A stretch of DNA of 64,000 nt, taken from contig NZ_PGES01000001.1 of assembly GCF_002797895.1 (NCBI RefSeq), positions 5,456,001 through 5,520,000 on the forward strand, given 5' to 3'. This stretch comes from Janthinobacterium sp. 67. GTDB lineage: Bacteria > Pseudomonadota > Gammaproteobacteria > Burkholderiales > Burkholderiaceae_D. This document shows, piece by piece, positions 43,767 through 45,865 of this stretch (its first letter is position 1; the number at the start of each line of letters is the position of its first letter). A program made the position numbers and the translations under genes. The notes under the pieces are model-generated. The model saw only the letters and a program-made list of their open reading frames with translations. It was not told the DNA's origin and ran no database searches.

Positions 43767-43922
43767 GTCTGCCTTCCTGTCCCTGTGAAATGAAGTAATT
43801 GAGCCTGGTTCGCCATGGCACGGCCGATTCAGTAGAATGACGTCCATCGCCTCGTGTTGCTCATGGTGCAGCCCGGGGCGTGCCCACTTATCGATTACTT
43901 TGACCCATGCAAGAGGAATTCC

Positions 43923-44225
43923 ATGAATAAACGTCAAGCTCTCATCGCCGCCGCCCTCGCGGGTCTCTGCGCCGGCACTTCCGTCAACGCGGCCGCGCAC
44001 GATGGTCCCGCCCCTGGCGACAAGGAAAAATGCTATGGCGTGGCCAAGGCGGGGCAGAACGATTGCGCCTCGTCCGACGGCGCGCATTCCTGCGCGGGCC
44101 AGGCGGAGGCGGACAATCTGCCCACGGAATGGTCCTATGTTGCCAAGGGCACGTGCGAACAGGCGGGCGGCTCCGTCAAACCCATCAAGGCCGGCAAGGC
44201 TGCAAAACCGGCTACCCAGCCCTAA
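43923..44225 (+). CDS. Bufferin-type precursor peptide (DUF2282, BufA1-like)
   Basis: A 100-residue DUF2282 protein. A signal peptide [18 protein letters not shown] ends near AAAHD. The mature part has the conserved four-cysteine pattern [14 protein letters not shown] (Cys37, Cys48), AHSCAG (Cys57) and KGTCEQAGG (Cys78). Bufferins are ribosomally made copper-binding proteins exported to the periplasm, in which an MNIO enzyme converts core cysteines to thiooxazoles. The next gene encodes that enzyme type, 17 bases downstream. AGAGGAA precedes the ATG. The Lys/Ala-rich tail after Cys78 is longer than in typical members I know. Confidence 0.88.
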
Positions 44226-44242
44226 GCGTCCGCCGCCTGCCC

Positions 44243-45865
44243 ATGCCGCCGCCCATCCAGGCGCTTGCCGGCGTCGGCTTGCGCGCCGCGCATTACCGCG
44301 ACTTCCTGGCGCGCCGGCCCAGGGTGGGCTGGCTGGAAGTGCACACTGAAAATTATCTGCAGCCCTCGGGCTGGGATCATCACGTGCTGCAGACCCTGCG
44401 CGAGGAATACCCGATCAGTCTGCATGGCGTGGGCCTGGGCCTGGGTTCCGCGCGCGGTTTTTCCGAAGCGCACCTGCAGCGCGTGCGCGCCGTGGTCGAG
44501 CGCATCGAACCGGTCCTCGTGTCGGAACACTTGAGCTGGGGCGCCGTGGCGCAGCGGCAACTCAACGATCTGTTGCCGCTGGCCTTGAACGGCGCCGCCC
44601 TCGATTTGCTATGCGCCAGAGTGGGGCGGGTGCAGGATGTGCTGAAAAGACCGATCTTGCTGGAGAATGTTTCCACTTACCTGCGTTTTGCCGACGATGC
44701 CATGAGCGAAGCACAATTCCTGGCGGAGCTGGCGCGCCGCAGCGGCTGCGGCTTGCTGCTCGATATCAATAATCTGTACGTGAACCAGTGCAACCACGGC
44801 GAAGACGCCATGCTTGCCATGCAGTCCATCGCGCCGGGCAGCGTGGGCGAGCTGCATCTGGGCGGCCACTTGCTGACGCCGCACGCCGTGATCGACCACC
44901 ATGGCGCTACCGTTGTCGAGCCCGTCTGGGACTTGTATGCGGCCGCCTTGCGGCGTTTTGGCGCCGTGCCCACCCTCGTCGAATGGGATACGGATTTGCC
45001 GCCGCTCGATATCCTGCTGGGCGAGGCGCACAAGGCGCAGGCCATGCTGGCGCGCCTTGCGCCGCAAACGCCCTGGCAGGGAGAGGCGCTGCCATCGACG
45101 CCAACGCCCGCGCCGCTTGACGCGCTGGTAGCCGGCCAGCAAGCGTTTGCCACGGCCTTGCTCGATACCGCGGCTGCCCTGCCATCGTTCGCGGGAGCGG
45201 CGGTATTGGAGCGTTTTTCACTGTACCGCGGCAACTTGAGCGCCACGTGGCGCCGCACCCTGGGCCATGCCTACCCCGTCGTGCTGGCGCTGGTGGGCGA
45301 GGAATTCTTTGGCGGCCTGGCGCGCGCGTATGGTCGGCAGTATCCGTCAGATAACGCCGATTTGAACCAGTTTGGCGAGCGTTTCGCCGATTTTCTCGCT
45401 GTTTTTCCGCCTGTGGCTGACTTGCCCTATCTGCCCGACATGGCGCGCCTGGAATGGGCCGTGCACCTGGCCCATTACGCGGCCGATGCGCAAGGCATGG
45501 CGCCCGAGTCGCTGGCCGCCATGCATCCCGACCAACTGGAAGCGCGGCGGTTTAGCTTGCATCCCGCTTGCGCCTTGCTGGCCTCCAACTGGCAAGTGGC
45601 GGTCCTGTGGCAGGCGCATCAGGATGGTGAAGGGCAGGGGATGTTTCCGCAGGATATGCAGGTGGCCAGTTGCGCGCTCGTATGCCGACCGCGCTGGAAG
45701 GCGCAGGTGCTGGTAGTGGATGCGGCTGCGCATGCAGCCTTGCTGGCCTTGCGGCAGGGGCAGACGTTTGGCGCCGCACTCGATGCGGCGTTCGAGCTGG
45801 ACCCGGCGTTCGATTTGGCCGCACACTTGCGCCAGTGGCTGGCGCACGCGGTGTTGACGGCGTAA
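44243..45865 (+). CDS. Fused MNIO (DUF692, BufB-like) and DUF2063 (BufC-like) protein
   Basis: A 540-residue two-domain protein. Residues about 5-272 are a DUF692 multinuclear non-heme iron oxidase with the expected ligand-bearing blocks: HTENY (Glu36), [10 protein letters not shown] (His61), SEHLSW (Glu95, His96), LENVSTY (Glu141), [10 protein letters not shown] (Asp174) and GGHLLTPH (His209), then EWDTD (Glu248). After an Ala/Pro linker, about 292-390 matches DUF2063 ([39 protein letters not shown]) with its C-terminal domain to the end. In most loci bufB and bufC are separate genes. No stop, frameshift or low-quality junction is visible. No DoxX gene follows. Confidence 0.88.

Follow-up and report, generated by a model that had tools for sequence, protein, structure and literature searches.

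The window analysed here, a stretch of 64,000 nucleotides from Janthinobacterium sp. 67, contains two closely spaced genes on the forward strand. The first, bufA1 (43923..44225, +), encodes a DUF2282 bufferin precursor of 100 aa, with an ATG at 43923 and a stop codon ending at 44225. The second, bufBC (44243..45865, +), begins with an ATG at 44243 and encodes a 540 aa protein in which an MNIO maturase and a PME-type-1 partner are naturally fused. The two genes are separated by 17 bases on the same strand, and recomputation from the window returned the coordinates, gap and 540-residue length given in the preliminary description of this locus. Upstream lie a phosphoesterase gene, MobB and a YjfB-like gene; downstream, in convergent orientation, come a gene whose DUF883 match falls slightly short of the cut-off, one with an S4 domain, and fumarase C. 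A putative bufA-bufBC promoter region (43810..43840, +) combines a sigma-70-like match with a conserved block. The match, TCGCCA-17-TAGAAT (43810-43838, +), is a candidate promoter by consensus match alone, one promoter-like site being found upstream of bufA versus a mean of 0.4 (sd 0.8) in shuffles. The block, GGCCGATTCAGTARAATGA (43822-43840), recurs unchanged in 10 of 12 aligned Janthinobacterium upstream regions; L047 has part of it and L049 lacks it. At ≤3 mismatches it has one match in the genome, as does the reversed control pattern; since the block occurs once in this genome, no regulon was found.

The precursor matches Pfam PF10048 (DUF2282) with 82.3 bits (cut-off 22.4, E 2.3e-23) and is the only DUF2282 match in its genome at E 0.01. 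The sole NCBIfam model matching it, BufA2, scores below its cut-off (24.5 vs 60), and the assignment is therefore based on Pfam DUF2282 and the cysteine pattern. Four cysteines, C37, C48, C57 and C78, are present in the mature precursor, and together with the Pfam score these bear out the earlier description of a DUF2282 precursor with four conserved cysteines. Conservation was followed in the best 80 of 233 named relatives, which are hence the nearest ones and partly overlap the 40 Janthinobacterium genomes discussed below. All 80 of these fusion loci have a DUF2282-type precursor gene upstream in the same orientation, and the four-cysteine pattern is found in 80/80 precursors, 77 in the locus scan and three (L074, L091, L105) inspected separately. 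Three precursors that escaped a pattern search (L067, L079, L097) were seen in the locus scan. The Lys/Ala-rich tail of about 20 residues first reported is present, extending 22 residues past the last cysteine. The nearest Janthinobacterium loci share it, but in most other fusion loci about 10–12 residues follow that cysteine, indicating that the long tail is not needed for the system.

Judged by eye, residues ~1–24 of the precursor form a putative Sec signal peptide with an n-region, a hydrophobic stretch and an Ala-rich end. A fifth cysteine, C16 (codon at 43968-43970), lies inside it; neither this residue nor the RRE-like domain considered below figured in the preliminary description. Of 77 precursors from the named fusion loci, 74 have cysteine at position 16, as do those of the two nearest split loci; no cysteine precedes the core in 13 of the 16 split loci for which a precursor was found. 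The start is doubtful in the third split locus with a cysteine before the core, L139, and likewise in a distant fusion, L115, that also has one. No standard lipobox was recognised by eye around C16. Among the same 77 precursors, signal-peptide positions 1–13 are nearly fixed (entropy 0–1.03 bits) compared with the variable positions 18–30 (0.97–2.83 bits). The conservation of positions 1–13 fits what would be expected of a recognised leader, and a role of the signal peptide in recognition has been reported (PMC12452194, as preliminary results; PMC13419390).

In the fusion protein, the MNIO (BufB) domain occupies residues 9–269 (44267..45049, +) and matches PF05114 with 326.7 bits (cut-off 25, E 1.3e-97); this half also exceeds the cut-off of the NCBIfam BufB model NF050167 (349.2 vs 310). 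It is followed by a Pro/Ala-rich linker, residues 270–294 (45050..45124, +), and by a DUF2063 domain characteristic of the BufC partner, residues 299–385 (45137..45397, +; PF09836, 72.2 bits, cut-off 27.2, E 4.3e-20). Both Pfam matches exceed their curated cut-offs, in agreement with the initial report of one chain carrying complete DUF692 (MNIO) and DUF2063 domains. Nearer the C-terminus, an RRE-like winged helix is seen in the AlphaFold2 model at residues 444–534 (45572..45844, +), with predicted strands at 444–448, 476–481 and 488–492 and predicted helices at 494–504, 509–519 and 525–534; pLDDT blocks in this region are mostly ≥90, with one at 72. Three strands followed by three helices is the order reported for RRE domains (PMC12710340), and by this β3-α3 order alone residues 444–534 are predicted to adopt an RRE fold. 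The NCBIfam HvfC model matches residues 299–463 below its cut-off (35.6 vs 142), Pfam NGO1945_C gave below-cut-off matches in three distant fusions, and the C-terminal half, searched by itself against PDB sequences, gave nothing beyond one match at E 0.6.

The AlphaFold2 model of the whole fusion has a mean pLDDT of 90.5 and a pTM of 0.89, the lowest 10-residue pLDDT block (67) lying within the linker. Its best Foldseek matches are the TglHI chain 8hi7_B, 3BWW and MbnB chains. An alignment of 60 fusions shows no variation at nine putative iron ligands in the MNIO domain, H61, H96, E141, D174, N177, H205, D218, H220 and E247, and the same holds for every filled row of an alignment of 100 fused and 30 split MNIO domains. 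Six of these (H61, H96, E141, D174, H205 and E247) are assigned from the 3BWW alignment and from what we take to be the MbnB sites. The remaining three, N177, D218 and H220, align via 3BWW with, or within one residue of, N175, D242 and H244 of HvfB, site-3 residues whose replacement abolished activity (PMC13419390). PME-type 1 partners are described as separate proteins, mostly of 250–260 residues (PMC12452194), whereas the partner here comprises residues ~295–540 of the MNIO protein itself and thus corresponds to a PME1 portion of a larger chain, not to a PME1 protein in its own right.

The fusion is real and conserved in relatives. An uninterrupted full-length fusion is present in 37 of 40 Janthinobacterium genomes. 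Of the other three, in G014 the contig runs out before the match is complete, the frame being open up to that point, the C-terminal half is interrupted on a short contig in G028, a fragmentary draft, and no fusion match was obtained at E 1e-10 in G021. Among the best 80 of the 233 named relatives, all 80 have an uninterrupted frame across the entire match, which covers nearly the full query. These include Janthinobacterium, Duganella, Rugamonas, Massilia, Pseudoduganella and one Herminiimonas MAG, the remainder being less exactly named as Oxalobacteraceae, Burkholderiaceae, Burkholderiales or Betaproteobacteria. A record labelled as a Bifidobacterium breve MAG (L112) holds an Oxalobacteraceae-type fusion locus and is probably a mislabelled or contaminated bin. 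The preliminary description had pointed to a lost stop codon, or to close relatives having only split genes, as evidence that would speak against a fusion. Neither was found: no stop codon lies between residues 272 and 292 in the window sequence, and the named loci are all open. That two genes were joined artificially by an error of sequencing or assembly, through loss of a stop or a frameshift, is thus scarcely credible; nothing in the window suggests it, one genus draft (G028) with its interrupted half being all that could be cited in favour, against the same open frame throughout the two partly overlapping sets.

Selection acts on both parts of the protein. In a set consisting of the window and L034–L049 (17 Janthinobacterium sequences, 133–136 pairs per region), median dN/dS was 0.16 for the MNIO domain, 0.61 for the linker (270–294), 0.23 for residues 295–385 and 0.24 for the rest. 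Both halves are therefore constrained, the linker much less so.

The gene neighbourhood is also conserved. Based on BLAST clusters, MobB lies upstream in 72/80 named loci, and a DUF883-like gene, the S4 gene and fumarase lie downstream of the fusion in 73/80, 73/80 and 71/80, respectively, counts in which some loci end early. The locus has thus mostly stayed in place. In the window, no DoxX gene directly follows the fusion, the next gene being convergent, and none was found downstream in the 16 nearest Janthinobacterium loci (L034–L049). The earlier characterisation of the locus as minimal, with no DoxX, therefore holds for this DNA but not as a trait of the fusion, as 33 of the best 80 of 233 relatives do have a DoxX gene downstream of theirs (the L050 copy identified by Pfam with 57.9 bits). 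DoxX is frequent in the bufferin core, not obligatory, and its absence here is a property of the lineage.

Beyond the nearest relatives, the suggested check for DUF692-DUF2063 fusions across genomes revealed an architecture common in the family and rare further out. Three to five candidates were scored per genome and fusions were counted by hand; the samples overlap, the window's genome is counted in each, and the counts are lower bounds. In a 60-row profile search, uninterrupted full-length fusions occur in at least 80 of 245 family genomes, including two distant ones (G081 and G243); two further genomes, G143 and G154, have 411–416 of 532 positions covered. Fusions were found in at least 14 of 399 genomes at order level (12 full length, plus G595 and G321 with shorter matches shown to be single frames), at least 6 of 369 at class level (five checked as single frames) and at least 2 of 398 at phylum level, both of the window's family. 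A one-strain oddity is ruled out by the genus and family counts.

Fused and split forms are intermingled on the MNIO tree. A 59-row tree (34 fused, 25 split) requires at least eight fused/split changes, with 8–9 in bootstrap trees, and its well-supported branches alone force eight; a 120-row quick tree also gives eight changes, four of them forced by starred branches. These counts do not separate gain from loss. The 59-row tree omits L002, L003, L125, L126, L131, L132 and most named Oxalobacteraceae rows, the majority of these omitted rows appearing in the 120-row tree; neither tree includes L005–L033, from the same genus and many of them named-locus genomes, and the class-level fusions L154–L158 are in no tree. 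An arrangement of all fusions as one clade was rejected by the AU test (p 4.9e-37, 34 fused vs 25 split rows). The test did not reject a single clade comprising the 26 main Oxalobacteraceae fusions (AU p 0.15), although the free tree does not contain one. The groups for these tests were picked by trait after the first tree, and long branches are present. Some distant fusions (L118, L119, L120, L123, L156) stand beside six-cysteine precursors, that of L119 matching the BufA2 model with 99.6 bits (cut-off 60); fusions therefore occur beside both BufA1- and BufA2-type precursors.

The arrangement of split pairs bears on how such fusions arise. The partner frame starts in-frame right after the MNIO stop in split loci L116, L122, L159, L160 and L161, and the bufB and bufC frames overlap in L129 and L130, the split loci nearest the main clade. 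In-frame adjacency or overlap of this kind is a short step from fusion and, with the rarity of the fusion outside the family, lends appreciable minority weight to a neutral reading, in which a genuine fusion arose when adjacent or overlapping genes happened to be joined, the resulting chain working like the pair. Such neutrality accords poorly with the repeated change of the trait on the tree, its retention at a syntenic locus across nearly the whole genus and much of the family, the selection acting on both halves, and the greater activity of an engineered homologue (PMC13419390).

Other MNIO loci were observed in the same genus, in the window's own genome and on plasmids. Two Janthinobacterium genomes, G005 and G020, contain a second, split bufB-bufC pair (L146, L147) with an MNIO half 64–65% identical to that of the window; judged by eye, the end of the upstream frame resembles a formylglycine-generating-enzyme domain, and Buf1-cytochrome-FGE fusions have been reported (PMC12452194). 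The window's genome has a second MNIO (L002, G000:C1:1148498-1152364; 351 bits against the BufB model); its partner is encoded by a gene of its own, and a cysteine-containing frame of a different kind lies upstream. A third, divergent MNIO (L003, G000:C1:1605788-1609606) follows a frame with a Gly/Ser/Cys-rich tail that is reminiscent, by eye, of TIGR04222 proteins. In a plasmid collection 344 records match the fusion, all at <60% identity. MNIO relatives occur on enterobacterial plasmids (e.g. H37, H46–H54), Escherichia accounting for 73 of the 344 matching records, and many adjoin a DNA-binding-domain (partner-type) gene. Among the 25 best and 60 spread plasmid rows, every annotated match to both halves names two genes. 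Some rows matching little beyond the MNIO half also name two genes; others name an MNIO gene alone, in one case a different product, in one case a DNA-binding-domain gene alone, and some are unannotated there.

Combined, the gene order, fusion, domain content, ligand conservation, selection, synteny and repeated fused/split change, each observed directly, are what we very likely see of a Buf1 (DUF2282) bufferin locus with a one-chain maturase, BufB-linker-DUF2063-RRE, that modifies the cysteines of BufA for copper buffering. The bacterium thus probably makes a copper-binding peptide using a single chain that unites an iron enzyme with its helper. For the substrate chemistry, signal-peptide recognition, copper function and activation by the partner, we infer from the literature by analogy. 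In Buf1 the central cysteines are modified, the outer pair forms a disulphide and the peptide has a role in copper handling (PMC12452194). By this analogy, once BufA has been translated, its Sec signal peptide would serve as the leader bound by the partner half, and the tethered MNIO half, with its multinuclear iron centre, would oxidise the central C48 and C57 to thiooxazoles. Export of the peptide would come next, the outer C37 and C78 would form a disulphide, and the mature peptide would buffer periplasmic copper. The preliminary description took the fusion to indicate that the partner acts directly with the oxidase at 1:1 stoichiometry. Such action is plausible, and the engineered HvfB-HvfC fusion (PMC13419390) is in line with it, but the natural fusion is not itself the evidence for it; direct action of a partner on the enzyme had already been shown by work on MbnBC, TglHI and HvfBC (PMC13419390, PMC10880893).

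The product may instead serve another metal or stress than copper, a reading we consider unlikely. It would be compatible with the lack of a copper gene among the six flanking genes tested and of any regulon for the single GGCCGATTCAGTARAATGA block, and many MNIO-made peptides have been argued to act beyond copper (PMC12452194); in opposition, Caulobacter Buf1 chelates both Cu(I) and Cu(II) (PMC12452194) and the precursor here belongs to the same DUF2282 family, with four cysteines. A further proposal concerns the benefit of the tether, which might keep the iron centre in its active mixed-valent state and catch the nascent BufA by its signal peptide before Sec does, hence the repeated fusion; recognition in this clade might involve the unusual C16, which would either dock at the iron centre or itself be modified, blocking export until the core cysteines are done. 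We offer this proposal as speculation and rate it as rather improbable.

Two questions raised in papers of 2025–2026 are how the partner activates the MNIO iron centre and what keeps a RiPP precursor with a Sec signal cytosolic until it is modified (PMC12452194, PMC13419390). A natural, stoichiometric and conserved single-chain maturase is a tool for both, as there is no weak complex to reconstitute and split relatives are available for comparison. Fused and split forms have interchanged more than once, beside both precursor types, and engineers reached the fusion independently. Genome mining that looks for separate bufB and bufC, or for partners of ~250 residues, may miss the fusion.

MNIO enzymes, PME1 partners, bufferins and MNIO enzymes with an added C-terminal domain are already known. 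The portions of the PMC12452194 landscape considered here describe bufferin fusions to MerC, cytochrome c and others as well as MNIO-nitroreductase fusions, and no MNIO-DUF2063 fusion is described in them; nor was a report of a natural one found in the open-access literature searched, supplementary tables aside, and domain databases may list the architecture. The nearest described relatives are the Buf1 bufABC operons of Caulobacter vibrioides, which have the same order of a DUF2282 precursor with four cysteines and a signal peptide (putative in the window), an MNIO and a DUF2063-RRE protein (PMC12452194). As the preliminary description maintained, BufB and BufC are separate in described bufferin operons (PMC12452194) and fused here; compared with the Caulobacter operon, MNIO and partner are one protein and no DoxX follows. 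TglHI and MbnBC, the nearest solved folds, likewise pair an MNIO with an RRE-bearing partner, but as two chains that catalyse other reactions and differ from one another in their mode of assembly (PMC10880893). MovX and ChrH also carry an extra C-terminal domain on the MNIO, an RRE domain in MovX (PMC13419390), that of ChrH being encoded separately in Cyanobacteriota (PMC12636315). However, their substrates and chemistry are different, and DUF2063 is not among the domains described for them in the parts of these sources considered (PMC13419390, PMC12636315). The closest parallel in architecture is the engineered HvfBC fusion of the Haemophilus influenzae oxazolin maturase, which joins the MNIO C-terminus to the partner N-terminus in the same order (PMC13419390). 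In that 2026 preprint, the product made in cells by the engineered fusion was fully modified, its yield in vitro clearly surpassed that of the co-expressed pair, and a mixed-valent diiron state was seen only with the partner. HvfBC is laboratory-made, lacks a linker and acts on an EGKCG-repeat precursor (PMC13419390), whereas the fusion described here is natural, has a linker and stands beside a DUF2282 precursor.
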